Shown here piece after piece: positions 1 through 4,796 of a DNA stretch of 26,651 bases. How positions within the stretch are numbered: position 1 is the first letter of the stretch; each line of letters begins with the position of its first letter. Below the pieces are notes generated by a model. It worked only from the letters and a program-made list of their open reading frames with translations, did not search any database and was not told the origin of the DNA. The DNA is from a virus. Location: IMG/VR virus record IMGVR_UViG_3300007519_000069, positions 1 to 26,651 of that record, one strand, 5' to 3'. Both the position numbers and the translations under genes were made by a program.

Positions 1-50
1 GTTTGCGCCAAAGTCACGCTCAATTCCCGTTTATAATATTCATTTGACGC

Positions 51-161
51 ACCCCCAAAATGGGGGTGGTTAAAAATTGTTACGCACCCCCAATTTGGGG
101 GTGGTTAAAAATTGTTACGCACCCCCAAATTGGGGATTTGACGCACCCCCAAAATGGGGGT
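51..161. repeat. Four tandem 17-bp C5/G5 palindromes (iteron or operator array)
   Basis: Four copies of a dyad of the form ACCCCCA-AAW-TGGGGGT lie at 51-67, 86-102, 121-137 and 145-161, each preceded by ACGC. Copy 2 is a near-perfect palindrome with 8-bp arms. Copy 3 has a degenerate right arm. Centre-to-centre distances are 35, 35 and 24 bp. The last spacing is shorter by 11 bp, about one helical turn, so the sites would stay on the same face of the helix. The first three units share the spacer motif GGTTAAAAATTGTT in whole or part. Copies 1 and 4 are both preceded by TTTGACGC, which could contain a -35 box, but no good -10 follows. Tandem phased dyads next to a replication gene are typical of initiator iterons or repressor operators; the sequence alone does not decide which. 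Confidence 0.85.
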
Positions 162-188
162 ACGGATAGACTATAACTACGGATAGAC
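161..188. repeat. Two direct repeats TACGGATAGAC
   Basis: An 11-bp motif, TACGGATAGAC, occurs at 161-171 and again at 178-188, 17 bp apart. It starts on the last base of the fourth palindrome, so it may be part of the same protein-binding region. Nothing else shows its role. Confidence 0.7.
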
Positions 189-733: not shown

Positions 734-871
734 ATGATAGTTTTACAGCCAAACGTATTTAAAAGCCTTCACAAAGTGATGAAAGAGTTAGACCAAACAG
801 CAATGACGACCCCTGAAAAGTTTGCCCACGTGCAAGGGTTGCTCAAATTAATCTCAAGGAGAGATGCGTAA
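734..871 (+). CDS. Small protein preceding the replication initiator (45 aa)
   Basis: A 45-codon ORF begins at ATG 734 (or GTG 731) after GAGG at 721-724. It ends in TAA at 869-871, whose last A is the first base of the initiator's ATG (TAATG overlap). That overlap suggests translational coupling and argues that the ORF is real. The product (begins MIVLQPNVFKSLHK) is predicted to be largely helical, with a central TTPEKFAHVQGLL segment and a basic C-terminus (SRRDA). No family was recognised. Its place makes a replication accessory or purely coupling leader peptide plausible; both are inference. Confidence 0.55.
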   Translation: MIVLQPNVFKSLHKVMKELDQTAMTTPEKFAHVQGLLKLISRRDA

Positions 872-1671
872 TGAGTATTGATATGAAAACTAATTCATTT
901 TGCATAAAGAGAGTAGACCCTCGTTATGTCACATTAAACGAGGACATCTTCATGTCATTGCCTGGCGACTGCCTGAAAGTTTACCTAGCGTTACGCTTTG
1001 AAGCGGATTATGAGATGGAATACTCATCTGTGAAGAGGAATGTGCAGTTTTTAGCGAATAAATCATTAATTAGCGTCCGGCAAGTAAAGTACTGCTTAAA
1101 AAAACTAGAGGAGCAAGGGTTAATTATGAGGGAAAAAAACCCAGGCTACCAAACAACTTACTGGGTTGCTAAAAACTTAAACCATTTTGTCAAAGTTTCA
1201 GTAGTGCAGGAGGTGCACGGGGTAGTGCAGGAGGTGCACGGGGTAGTGCAGGAGGTGCACGACATAAACAATAACTCTTTCATTAATCATTCCAATAAAG
1301 ATATATGCACCTCCGTTCCGGAGATGCAGCCAGCTGCCCCTAAAGAAGAAAAACCCAAGCCCACAGTAACCAAGGAGGTAGCCCAGTATGTAACCGCATG
1401 GAACCAGTTAGCGAGCAAATACAACCTAAACACCATGGGCTCAAACCAGAGAGAATTAAAAGCAATCGAGGCTAACTTAAGAAAGCTAAAGCCTATTTGG
1501 GACTGTGTGTTAACTCCCGAATCGTTCGTTTGCTTAATGGAACAGGCTGCAATACTGAAGCACGACTACTTAATTCAGATGAATTTTGAGCTTGAATGGA
1601 TTTTAAGAGAGAAAAACTTTATGAAAATTTACAAAGACGTAGAGAGGGCGGGAAATGAAAGACCACGATAA
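871..1671 (+). CDS. Phage replication initiator, winged-helix (lambda O-like layout)
   Basis: This 266-aa protein probably binds the phage origin and recruits the helicase encoded next. Residues about 20-105 look like a winged-helix domain of the phage replication-protein type (LPGDCLKVYLALRF, then FLANKSLISVRQVKYCLKKLEEQGLI). Residues 111-131 are three copies of VVQEVHG/D, encoded by 21-bp DNA repeats. A low-complexity, Pro/Lys-rich linker (about 132-160) leads to a C-terminal domain with TAWNQLASKYNL and many aromatics. In lambda O, an N-terminal DNA-binding domain, origin repeats inside the gene and a C-terminal helicase-loading domain come in the same order. Start ATG 871 has AAGGAGAG upstream. 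The 3' end overlaps the helicase gene by 17 bp. Function is inferred from fold pattern and context, not from a database match. Confidence 0.8.
   Translation: MSIDMKTNSFCIKRVDPRYVTLNEDIFMSLPGDCLKVYLALRFEADYEMEYSSVKRNVQFLANKSLISVRQVKYCLKKLEEQGLIMREKNPGYQTTYWVAKNLNHFVKVSVVQEVHGVVQEVHGVVQEVHDINNNSFINHSNKDICTSVPEMQPAAPKEEKPKPTVTKEVAQYVTAWNQLASKYNLNTMGSNQRELKAIEANLRKLKPIWDCVLTPESFVCLMEQAAILKHDYLIQMNFELEWILREKNFMKIYKDVERAGNERPR
1201..1263. repeat. Three 21-bp tandem repeats with dyad (origin iterons)
   Basis: Three in-frame copies lie at 1201-1221, 1222-1242 and 1243-1263; the first two are identical and the third differs at two bases at its end. Each contains the dyad GTGCA-GGAGG-TGCAC. The 21-bp period is two helical turns, so the sites are in phase. 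In the protein they give VVQEVHG twice and VVQEVHD once, in the linker between the two domains. They are the best candidate for initiator-binding iterons. Confidence 0.8.
1264..1328. other. AT-rich DNA-unwinding candidate and flanking inverted half-iteron
   Basis: Directly after the tandem repeats, 1264-1305 has only 8 G/C in 42 bases. It is followed at 1306-1314 by TGCACCTCC, the exact reverse complement of the iteron half GGAGGTGCA. GGAGATGCA at 1320-1328 matches that half in the original orientation at 8 of 9 positions, so 1306-1328 is an imperfect dyad around GTTCC. Iterons plus an adjacent AT-rich strand-opening region are the hallmark of lambda-type origins. That this one melts first is inference. 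Confidence 0.6.
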
Positions 1672-2986
1672 AAATACAGAACTACGCGTAATTGGAGCAC
1701 TAATTATCTGTGGTAGCATGAAAGATGAGGGCGCGGTCAGTATCTTTTCCCAGGTGACAGAAGATTTTTTTATGTCGAAAGACGTGAAGGAATTATTTGG
1801 CGCAATTAAATCTCAAGTTTTAAAAGACCTGCCATTTGATGCAATAAGTTTATCACCTATTATTTCCGAAGTTGCATACCAGCTGCTATTACCGATACTT
1901 GACGGTGACTACCATTCATTTTCAACAATCAGCAATGATATTGAAGTTTTAAAGAAAATGCATCGTTTGCGGCCTAAGCTTGAATTAATAAAAGGAGCCA
2001 ACAGAGCTTTGTTAGCAGAGATAAACCAAGATGTAGCTCTTGAGTTAATACAGGAGTTAGGGTCAAAGCTAATAACAGATAGACCTCTAGCAAAAGAGTA
2101 TGCACAGGAATGCGAAGAGCTTATTGAAGAAATACTTACCTCCGATGAAAACCCCACAGAGATTAAAACTAACCTAAGGGATTGGCCTCCGTTTCCAGCA
2201 ACGGGGATGATTGTAGTTGCAGGGCGAGCGGGTATAGGTAAAACCATGATGGGCTTGCATTTATTGGAGAAGATACTTGAGGCTAAACCAGGAACCAAAG
2301 CCATTTACTTCAATCTAGAGATGAGCAAAAGAGTTATGGTTAATCGGTATTTAAATATGATTTATCCGTTTACTGGCTCGCTTAAATCCGCTTTAAACAT
2401 GGGTGGTGCAACAGAGTTGCTTAAGCGTAACCTTCTGTTAATTACAAAGCCGAACGTGACAATAAGCGAGATTGAATTAATCTCCACATGCCAATCATTG
2501 GAGCATGATATTTCCGTTATTGTTGTGGATTACGTTGGGCGCGTCAAAGGCTTAGGAAGCAATAGACATGAGCAATTGGAGGAGATAGCTCAAGACCTCG
2601 CAGGGTTAGCTATTAAGCTAGATTGTGTTGTGCTCGCCATACAGCAAGTGAGCAAGGAAAAAGTGGAGAAAGTAAAAGTAGACAGAGTCCCAGAAATACA
2701 CGAAGGAGCTGGCTCCATGGGCTTTGAAAGAGCGGCTGAATGGTGGTTAGGGATTGACCAGCCCCAGGTAGCAGAGCCTGAAAACCCCTCGGTTAAAGAT
2801 TTGTTTATCGTAAAAAATCGCAAGTCGCGCGGGGACTCGGGTTACTTTACTGCCTATCTAACATTCAAAGGCGGTAGGTTTTATGAAGTAGACCAAAGAG
2901 AATGCGAGATAAAAATGAATAACCAGGGCTTTAACCTAACCCCTCTATCTAAATTTAAAAAGGAAAAAAACTATTGCAAGGAATGA
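1655..2986 (+). CDS. DnaB-like replicative helicase
   Basis: The 443-aa product should unwind the template 5'-3' as a hexamer. Residues 1-110 resemble the small helical DnaB N-terminal domain. The RecA-like ATPase domain has Walker A GRAGIGKT (190-197), a following FNLEMSK motif (219-225), Walker B ISVIVVDY (286-293, D292), and a VVLAIQQVSK block (325-334) typical of DnaB/Gp4 helicases. GAGSMGFERAAEWW (351-364) fits the DnaB nucleotide-sensing region. Length fits phage DnaB homologues. There is no zinc-finger primase domain, so primase would come from the host or from another gene. Start ATG 1655 follows GAGAGGG and lies inside the initiator's 3' end, indicating coupled expression. Initiator followed directly by a DnaB-type helicase is the P22-style arrangement, in which the phage brings its own helicase. 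Confidence 0.9.
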   Translation: MKDHDKNTELRVIGALIICGSMKDEGAVSIFSQVTEDFFMSKDVKELFGAIKSQVLKDLPFDAISLSPIISEVAYQLLLPILDGDYHSFSTISNDIEVLKKMHRLRPKLELIKGANRALLAEINQDVALELIQELGSKLITDRPLAKEYAQECEELIEEILTSDENPTEIKTNLRDWPPFPATGMIVVAGRAGIGKTMMGLHLLEKILEAKPGTKAIYFNLEMSKRVMVNRYLNMIYPFTGSLKSALNMGGATELLKRNLLLITKPNVTISEIELISTCQSLEHDISVIVVDYVGRVKGLGSNRHEQLEEIAQDLAGLAIKLDCVVLAIQQVSKEKVEKVKVDRVPEIHEGAGSMGFERAAEWWLGIDQPQVAEPENPSVKDLFIVKNRKSRGDSGYFTAYLTFKGGRFYEVDQRECEIKMNNQGFNLTPLSKFKKEKNYCKE

Positions 2987-3048
2987 GGCGTTTTAGTTTG
3001 TGATAAAGTCGCCTAGGTGCTAGCATAACTAAAAATATTAGGGGTTAA

Positions 3049-3288
3049 ATGATGGCTAAGTCAGAAATTAAAGCAGAACAACGCGCACCAGTAGTCACAG
3101 AACGCACACGCAAGCCCCGTGAAGGCTTTAAAAACCCAAACCGAGGCATCCCAGTGGCCGAAGGGTTAACGCTTCAGGACGTGCCTCGTGAGATGATTCA
3201 AGCGCATCTTCGAGCTAGTGAGCAGGTAGCAAAACAGCGCTTCAAAGAAAAATATAATGCTGGATTTGGTGGAAACGAATCTTTTTGA
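3049..3288 (+). CDS. Hypothetical basic protein (79 aa)
   Basis: A short gene follows the helicase after 62 bp, with a Shine-Dalgarno-like AGGGGT at 3040-3045. Two adjacent ATG codons (3049, 3052) can serve as start. The N-terminal half is rich in Arg/Lys/Pro (TERTRKPREGFKNPNRG) and probably disordered. The C-terminal half (VPREMIQAHLRASEQVAKQRFKEKY) is predicted to be helical. It ends 8 bp before the endolysin start and is surely co-transcribed with it. I do not recognise the family; a nucleic-acid-binding accessory protein is a guess from charge only. Confidence 0.65.
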   Translation: MMAKSEIKAEQRAPVVTERTRKPREGFKNPNRGIPVAEGLTLQDVPREMIQAHLRASEQVAKQRFKEKYNAGFGGNESF

Positions 3289-3296
3289 GGTGAGTC

Positions 3297-3842
3297 ATGG
3301 CTGATTTCAATGCGTGTGTAGATCACGTTTTAGCTAACGAAGGCGGTTATTCAGACAATCAGAAAGACAAAGGGGGAGCCACTAATTTTGGTATCTCACT
3401 TAGATTTCTGAAGGAAGTTAACCCGAAAACATTAGTACGCAATGGAATCACCGGCGAAGTTACCAAGCAAACGATTAAAGATTTGACAAGAGAGCAGGCG
3501 GTTAGCTTTTATTATTCTGAGTTCTGGAATACGGCTAGATTTGACAAAATCATGAATGGGATTATCGCTAAATACGTTTTTGATAGCGCGGTTAATCATG
3601 GGTTGCACCAGGCCACGTTAAACGTTCAGCGCGCTTGTTGTTCAGCACAAAAAAAGGTTGATTTTATTATGTGTGATGGCTTGCTAGGCCACAAGACATT
3701 GGGAGCTATCAACCAAATTTCTTTTTCACTCATACCGCCTATGATTAGTGAAAGGGCTGGCTTCATGCGTAGGATAGTGGCTAGAGACCCTACGCAATCG
3801 GTGTTTTTAGATGGTTGGTTAAAACGGGCGTATGATATTTAA
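3297..3842 (+). CDS. Endolysin, glycoside hydrolase 108 type (N-acetylmuramidase)
   Basis: This 181-aa enzyme should cleave the glycan strands of peptidoglycan at lysis. The N-terminus has the GH108 signature NEGGYSDN with the expected catalytic glutamate at E15, then KGGATNFGIS (25-34). The C-terminal half (AVNHGLHQATLNVQRAC and DGLLGHKTLGAIN) matches the small peptidoglycan-binding domain that usually follows GH108. Length is normal for the family. There is no signal peptide or N-terminal membrane anchor, so release should need a holin, and none is recognisable next door. Start ATG 3297 has GAGGTGAG upstream. The TAA stop overlaps the stop of the convergent minus-strand gene. Confidence 0.92.
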   Translation: MADFNACVDHVLANEGGYSDNQKDKGGATNFGISLRFLKEVNPKTLVRNGITGEVTKQTIKDLTREQAVSFYYSEFWNTARFDKIMNGIIAKYVFDSAVNHGLHQATLNVQRACCSAQKKVDFIMCDGLLGHKTLGAINQISFSLIPPMISERAGFMRRIVARDPTQSVFLDGWLKRAYDI

Positions 3843-3970
3843 TCGCCTCGCGACTCCTTCCATTCTTCGGTTGCTTGTTCTTCCCTTGCATTGTTTTTGA
3901 GTTGTTCGGAAATTCCGTAAGACTGGTTTAATTCGTCCTCGTCACCGTGGCATTCATTGGTTTCATTCAT
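3839..3970 (-). CDS. Hypothetical acidic protein (43 aa), last gene of minus operon
   Basis: ATG at 3970 has a strong ribosome-binding site, GGGAGGAAAG, six bases upstream, which decides this start over longer in-frame choices. The product (MNETNECHGDEDELNQ...) is acidic in the first half and rich in Glu/Gln/Lys, soluble and probably helical. It overlaps the end of the membrane-protein gene by 8 bp, and its stop codon overlaps the endolysin stop on the other strand. Unknown family. A soluble partner of the 40-aa membrane protein is possible only from context. Confidence 0.55.
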   Translation of the reverse strand: MNETNECHGDEDELNQSYGISEQLKNNAREEQATEEWKESRGD

Positions 3971-4085
3971 TTTTAACTTTCCTCCCACGTCTAGAATTCC
4001 CGACCTGGCCAGCAATAAACAGCCAAAAAGCCAAGGAAGCAAAACCAAACACCACCTTGCCTAGCTCGTAAAAAAATCCATCCAT
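3963..4085 (-). CDS. Small single-pass membrane protein (40 aa)
   Basis: ATG 4085 starts one base after the stop of the upstream 76-aa gene, and the ORF ends at TGA 3963-3965. The product MDGFFYELGK is followed by about 19 hydrophobic residues (VVFGFASLAFWLFIAGQV, roughly 11-28), then a basic tail (SRRGRKVK) that should stay in the cytoplasm. Coding is supported by tight packing between two genes on the same strand. It lies close to the endolysin, though on the opposite strand, so a holin or lysis regulator is conceivable; a host-membrane effector fits equally well. No family recognised. Confidence 0.55.
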   Translation of the reverse strand: MDGFFYELGKVVFGFASLAFWLFIAGQVGNSRRGRKVKNE

Positions 4086-4319: not shown

Positions 4320-4796
4320 TTAAGCCGCCTTCAGTTTGTTTTGTTTCACGCCTGCTCTATCGCTACCGTATACCGCGCGGATATCATCCATGGTTTTGCT
4401 GCCACGGCTGAATGACTTGTAATCGCTTGGACGGTAGAACCACATTTTTTTCTTGATTGCCCACTTGTAACCGGCTGTTTTCAAGACTTCACGGTGAGGT
4501 TTGGTATCACCTGAAACCCACACCCACGCGCCACAGACTTCGATATCGAGGTTTAAACCCATGATTGCGGTTAGTGCCTCGAAAAGCTCATGGCCGTATT
4601 CTATGCCCGTTTGTTCTGTGCCCGTGTGGTCTTTAAGTACTGCATAAGCTTCATTAACTGCTTTCATCATCTCAAGCCCTGCCGGATTGCGGTCAGGGTG
4701 ATACAGTGAGCAAGCTTTTCGGTAAGCTTTTTTTGTTAGTTCCGGCGTTATGTCACCGGTGAGCCCTAGAATTTGGCAAGCGTCTGTTATTTTCAT
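4320..4796 (-). CDS. J-domain (DnaJ-like) protein with phage/plasmid-type C-terminal domain
   Basis: Residues 1-55 form a J domain with YRKACSLYHPDRNP; the HPD motif at 33-35 is needed to stimulate Hsp70/DnaK ATPase. The rest lacks the Gly/Phe, zinc-finger and client-binding regions of DnaJ. It has instead a compact module with VWVSGDTKPHREVLK, AGYKWAIKKKMWFYRP (about 92-123), which I know from J-domain proteins of mobile elements. At 158 aa it is a J-domain adapter rather than a full chaperone. It is the second gene of the minus operon. Likely role: redirecting host DnaK to a phage process such as replisome remodelling, virion assembly or host takeover. Which one is not shown. Confidence 0.85.
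   Translation of the reverse strand: MKITDACQILGLTGDITPELTKKAYRKACSLYHPDRNPAGLEMMKAVNEAYAVLKDHTGTEQTGIEYGHELFEALTAIMGLNLDIEVCGAWVWVSGDTKPHREVLKTAGYKWAIKKKMWFYRPSDYKSFSRGSKTMDDIRAVYGSDRAGVKQNKLKAA

Follow-up and report, generated by a model that had tools for sequence, protein, structure and literature searches.

Intragenic replication origins in described systems

Origins within initiator genes have been known since phage lambda, in which the N-terminal domain of the O protein binds the iterons and its C-terminal domain recruits the helicase side. In the lambda ori/O region and in the origins of Stx phages, the initiator gene has dyad iterons at its centre, and an AT-rich tract follows them (PMC7466680). 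The pSK41 Rep protein, a RepA_N initiator, has a winged-helix N-terminal domain that binds Rep boxes located centrally in rep, a linker encoded by ori, and a separate C-terminal domain that contacts DnaG (PMC5703833). The pPR9 and pUSA03 initiators are hybrids in which a phage HTH_36-type (PF13730) N-terminal domain and its own intragenic origin are placed on another C-terminal domain, and autonomous replication has been shown for the pPR9 rep region (PMC5703833).

Here we describe a locus in an IMG/VR virus record of 26,651 bp (the window, i.e. the whole stretch of DNA analysed), the head, portal and packaging genes of which are podovirus-like. As in lambda ori, there are tandem dyad iterons between the N- and C-terminal domains of the initiator and an AT-rich stretch directly after them. 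However, the lambda iterons are of the type ATCCCTCAAAACGAGGGA and are unrelated in sequence to the GTGCA dyads of the window, as the initial annotation had recognized (CCCTC half-sites are absent); the next gene codes for a DnaB-type helicase rather than for a loader such as P; and the window protein has no Pfam match at E 0.01 to the lambda O-type family Phage_rep_O (PF04492). With pSK41 Rep it shares the winged-helix N-terminal domain, the central position of the origin in the gene, the origin-encoded linker, and the separate C-terminal domain, but pSK41 Rep belongs to another sequence family (the window protein has no Pfam sequence match to RepA_N, and the resemblance is in fold only), uses another binding site, and has a C-terminal domain contacting DnaG. 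The pPR9 rep gene was checked for GTGCA-N5-TGCAC and has no such array; other repeats are present.

The replication region of the window

The replication initiator gene (positions 871–1671, plus strand) codes for a 266 aa protein laid out as an N-terminal winged helix, an origin-encoded linker, and a helical C-terminal domain. The assignment draws on matches to O-like replication-initiator PHROGs that are weak but consistent (phrog_345, 1.8e-6; phrog_270, 2.6e-5), on an AlphaFold2 model, and on the N-terminus seeding a profile that retrieves array-bearing initiators; the Pfam winged-helix matches all lie below the curated cut-off. The model (47 sequences) has a confident winged helix at residues ~24–105 (codons 940–1185, plus strand; pLDDT of the block mostly 89–97), a disordered segment at residues 112–147, and a helical C-terminal domain. 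Its PDB matches are winged helices including CRP and the N-terminal domains of RepA_N initiators, with a VIA-align Z of ~9 for both, and the initiator entries 4pql, 4pt7 and 5kbj are among them. The recognition helix (residues 69–81; 1075–1113, plus strand) contains R70 (codon 1078–1080), the proposed reader of half-site base 3 (see below). The C-terminal domain (1325–1671, plus strand) is replaced together with the helicase in the nearest relative, L006, and is the proposed helicase-recruiting part. The DnaB-type replicative helicase gene (1655–2986, plus strand; PF03796, E=2.8e-23; phrog_19, 1e-47) overlaps the 3′ end of the initiator gene.

The initial annotation had described three 21-bp dyad repeats between the DNA-binding and C-terminal domains, a 42-bp stretch with only 8 G/C directly after them, and a DnaB-like helicase as the next gene; all of these are present, with two changed bases in the third repeat. 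The iterons are at 1201–1221, 1222–1242 and 1243–1263 (these and the DNA features described next are assigned to neither strand), and have the repeat unit GTAGTGCAGGAGGTGCACGGG, with iterons 1 and 2 identical and iteron 3 differing at the final two bases. Each contains the dyad GTGCAGGAGGTGCAC (at 1204–1218, 1225–1239 and 1246–1260), which is of the form GTGCA-GGAGG-TGCAC, or more generally GTGCA-N5-TGCAC. These three are the only exact copies within the 26,651-bp record, and the number of dyad matches was reached by 0 of 100 dinucleotide shuffles. The iterons encode residues 111–131, which fall in the linker predicted by AlphaFold2, so the putative origin is written into the linker; because this segment is floppy, the iteron DNA could be selected for binding without harm to the protein. 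The AT-rich stretch, a proposed DNA unwinding element, occupies 1264–1305, and its composition is rare but not unique, with 58 of 26,610 42-bp windows in the record being as poor in G/C.

Just past the AT-rich stretch there is an imperfect inverted repeat, TGCACCTCC-GTTCC-GGAGATGCA (1306–1328), in which the iteron half-site is reused and which recalls the palindrome that follows the AT tract of lambda; its role is doubtful because the right arm is lost in L006. At the left end of the window (47–165) are ~35-bp repeats that contain the palindrome CCCCCAAATTGGGGG (ACGCACCCCCAAATTGGGGGTGGTTAAAAATTGTT), which are missing from L006 although it is otherwise similar, and these could possibly be an operator, or a second replication or packaging signal. 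A switch in cumulative GC skew, which the initial annotation had proposed to look for at the origin, is not clear over the record, a result that is uninformative since the record is short and may be a fragment. We also note a minus-strand gene of the phage genome at 4320–4796 with an N-terminal DnaJ domain (PF00226, 1.8e-11).

A candidate origin and its exchange between genomes

The segment 1201–1305 is very likely a phage replication origin situated inside the initiator gene and organized on the lambda plan, with the initiator binding the iterons and the helicase recruited by its C-terminal domain. In the mechanism that we infer from the sequence, the winged-helix N-terminal domain would bind the three GTGCA-N5-TGCAC dyads, presumably with one dimer on each, and the bound dimers, spaced by two helical turns, would stack along the same face of the double helix. 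The stacked complex would strain the AT-rich stretch open, the C-terminal domain would bring in or load the DnaB-type helicase, the product of the gene that follows, and replication would start at the array.

L006 departs from the window in an informative way. The two are 92% identical over 414–1324 and 93% identical over 2991–3974, and are divergent between these segments. Identity is 92–98% across the DNA-binding domain, iterons and AT-rich stretch, and the first 150 residues of the initiators are 98.7% identical compared with 36.5% for the remainder (boundary 1324); the helicases share 43.8% identity. Because the break is just past the AT-rich stretch, the region divides into one unit of DNA-binding domain plus origin and a second of C-terminal domain plus helicase, and between the two genomes the origin module and the helicase-loading module have been recombined in nature. 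The functions of lambda O and of the pSK41/pPR9 initiators are known to be divided in this way, and the module logic is the same as in the pPR9 and pUSA03 hybrids.

The exchange is also pertinent to whether the array could instead be an operator, at which the initiator or some other winged-helix regulator controls transcription of the replication operon, with no replication start site. Dyad repeats bound by winged-helix proteins are usually operators and initiators often autoregulate, but this array is mid-gene and away from the position of a promoter, with an AT-rich stretch behind it, and L006 still has it joined to the DNA-binding domain even though the helicase-interacting part downstream has been exchanged. 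We therefore regard an operator alone as improbable, and note that an array acting as an origin may have an additional regulatory role.

Spread of the dyad class

When the window protein was used as a single query, one search gave no relatives and another gave one, and a DNA pattern was therefore used for recruiting. IMG/VR was scanned for two GTGCA-N5-TGCAC dyads close together, and the viral counts given here are among the matches listed. A stricter three-dyad pattern was found at 34 places in bacterial assemblies (one genome per species), the record titles of which name Bacillota, Pseudomonadota, Actinomycetota, Deltaproteobacteria, Planctomycetota, Chloroflexota, Rhodothermota (Longimonas), Spirochaetota, Bacteroidota (Apibacter), and Ca. 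Nealsonbacteria; Deinococcota are added through Thermus phages. In six whole bacterial genomes the array is at a single place each, with 0 in the reversed control.

Because unmasked profiles could be driven by iteron-encoded peptides, we used a profile in which every iteron-touched residue was masked and the seed was only the window residues preceding the array. Arrays of at least three sites lie inside ORFs matching this profile in 71 of 84 viral instances (among the matches listed) and 26 of 34 in bacterial genomes; the other 13 viral arrays (among the matches listed) and eight genomic ones lie outside such ORFs, in some cases because the ORF is cut or frameshifted. Sixty of the profile-matched winged-helix domains are mutually <60% identical, and among 124 candidate array-bearing ORFs, 77 match phrog_270 and 69 match PF13730. 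The next genes at 78 loci include DnaB_C (16), IstB/DnaC-like (12) and lambda P (2) types. The masked profile did not place the Bacteroidota and Spirochaetota arrays within an initiator ORF and MAG titles are fallible, so we keep the count at nine or more bacterial groups. The GTGCA dyad array is thus situated in the middle of winged-helix initiator genes in many phages and prophages that are unrelated to one another, from at least nine bacterial groups by record title. The iteron, which the initial annotation had thought to be new, is thus not private to this phage but a widely used class, and the search for same-place repeats in related phages that it had suggested found the opposite of repeats that are absent or unconserved, with the dyad mid-gene and conserved as DNA.

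Initiators were also recruited by protein sequence, and 41 of 80 non-redundant ones have an intragenic dyad array that is significant relative to codon shuffles; since about half have none, the plan is frequent among these proteins without being general. Named members of the class include the replication proteins of SfV, ST64B, mEp460 and the cdtI phage, together with those of Thermus phages Lalka8, Lalka27a and Lalka27b. Lalka27a has strict GTGCA arrays adjoining a DnaB-type helicase gene, and in SfV and ST64B the half-sites are a mixture of GTGCA and GTGAA. Members are annotated as replication proteins only, with no origin annotated in the two enterobacterial records checked. Relatives of the SfV gene are present in 2,692 of 5,426 complete E. 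coli genomes.

GTGCA/GTGAA-type initiators are also present in two plasmid records, Enterobacter p1BP16m1_VIM (L252) and a 43.5-kb Microbulbifer plasmid (L255), where they adjoin replication protein P or a replicative helicase; we read these as plasmid-borne prophages or phage-plasmids. Pattern matches in Borrelia lp157 and Deinococcus pDFI3 were rejected as origins, being repetitive or unrelated coding sequence.

The iterons are conserved as DNA

All three reading frames are used by the iterons of the family (120/254/32), and in 67 of 110 genes the iterons are in more than one frame (e.g. VVQEVHQGGGAGGAP in L007). In the viral pair scan, the spacings between neighbouring dyads are evenly distributed modulo 3 (70/65/69, among the matches listed), compared with 87/6/3 for a scrambled control dyad, a distribution that is the mark of peptide repeats. 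The spacings cluster at 21–24, 31–35 and 42–45 bp, with a minor class at 17, and the Rayleigh R is 0.65 at a period of 11 bp and 0.09 at 3 bp. The iterons are therefore conserved as DNA and not as peptide. Since their base sequence is maintained whichever frame is used, every gene of this kind offers a clear natural example of two overlapping codes. Over the 50 bp that follow the last iteron the AT fraction is 0.59, compared with 0.51 over the 100 bp preceding the first, with the rise at 86 of 109 loci (p=2e-10). This combination of frame, spacing and AT pattern is that expected from a protein stacked on duplex DNA beside an unwinding element. The lambda-like plan put forward in the initial annotation gains support from the same dyad occurring mid-gene in unrelated winged-helix initiators, in three frames and with helical spacing.

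The same data bear on two further explanations. One is that the repeats act as peptide, with VVQEVHG serving for binding or as a flexible segment, and the DNA likeness secondary to the protein, as might be suspected from the window, where the repeats are all in one frame and give VVQEVHG three times. This is already contradicted by the relatives, in which the same DNA yields VQEVH, SAGDAP-like or QCTTCT-like peptides, often more than one of them in a single gene, by spacings that are not multiples of 3, and by the predicted disorder of the iteron-encoded segment, and we give it almost no weight. Equally hard to credit is an RNA element in which GTGCA/TGCAC hairpins with a Shine-Dalgarno-like GGAGG loop govern translation or an internal start, since, even with GGAGG as the core in the window phage and a dyad capable of pairing in RNA, family members differ widely in this 5-nt core (GGAGC, AATGC, GAATC, GGAAA, CGTGG, and others) and the 11-bp spacing suits duplex DNA rather than RNA. 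The operator, peptide and RNA explanations all fit worse than a replication origin.

There are two variations in iteron spacing. In L219, L221 and L241 it alternates between 22 and 23 bp (45 per pair), and in L016, L046, L085 and L218 there are runs of 17-bp spacing beside 22/23-bp runs and off-phase with the 11-bp series. The 17-bp runs perhaps reflect a second binding mode.

A recognition-helix residue and the half-site base

A control dyad, GTCGA-N5-TCGAC, matched mostly peptide repeats, in which the spacing is a multiple of 3. Six homologous winged-helix initiators (L203, L140, L187, L189, L181 and L213) nevertheless contain true arrays of it. These appear to be a second iteron specificity, surfaced by the control scan, and it was their presence that led us to test the recognition helix. 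Position 3 of this helix is Asp in all six GTCGA initiators and Arg in 108 of 115 members of the GTGCA class.

The rule was tested on initiators recruited by protein sequence and not by iteron, although one of the two peptide patterns touches the iteron-encoded stretch, and it had been noticed first on pattern-selected loci and on some recruited loci that were later part of the tested set. With these qualifications, half-site base 3 is G in 27 of 27 initiators with Arg at helix position 3, and in three of 11 with other residues (p=3e-6). This position is the best of 108 alignment columns, with the next best at p 0.016. After thinning to 60, 50 and 45% identity the association has p values of 2e-4, 0.005 and 0.007, by which relatedness is only partly controlled; it weakens to p=0.005–0.007 when only very divergent proteins are compared. 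Helix residue 3 (R70 in the window) thus appears to decide which half-site base 3 is read, and in the wider family it would set this base, with Arg reading G.

R70 aligns without gaps to Glu181 of E. coli CRP (SVRQVKYCLKKLEEQGLI with SRETVGRILKMLEDQNLI), the alignment being based on what we take to be the CRP recognition-helix letters (SRETVGRILKMLEDQNLI), and CRP is among the best structural matches. A contact of Glu181 to a half-site base pair has been reported (PMC11253593).

On balance, we lean slightly towards there being a large cross-phylum class of initiators with one origin architecture and one code (Arg with GTG..., Asp, Ala or Ser with GTC..., and Leu with GTA...), in which the origin and DNA-binding domain are traded as a unit against the C-terminal domain and helicase. 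An origin within the initiator gene has a precedent in lambda, and one within a winged-helix initiator gene of a plasmid has a precedent in pSK41; for the GTGCA class, its cross-phylum spread and the residue-base rule we found no description in the literature searched, chiefly that on GTGCA-type or intragenic phage origins, with much subscription literature outside the search and an earlier mention possible.

Phages with mapped replication origins are few, and a single DNA signal marks a likely origin in phages and prophages recorded under Bacillota, Pseudomonadota, Actinomycetota, Planctomycetota, Chloroflexota, Rhodothermota, Deinococcota and further groups. The residue-base rule lends itself to testing by single substitutions, and would explain how the matching of initiator and origin is kept while the helicase-loading parts swap. 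If both the recognition code and the modular trade are true, many phage and prophage origins could be read from sequence and replication compatibility could be predicted.

Four loci recruited by protein sequence (L344, L347, L353 and L370) have CGGCA or CGGAA half-sites with Arg still at helix position 3, and the first two half-site bases therefore vary too.
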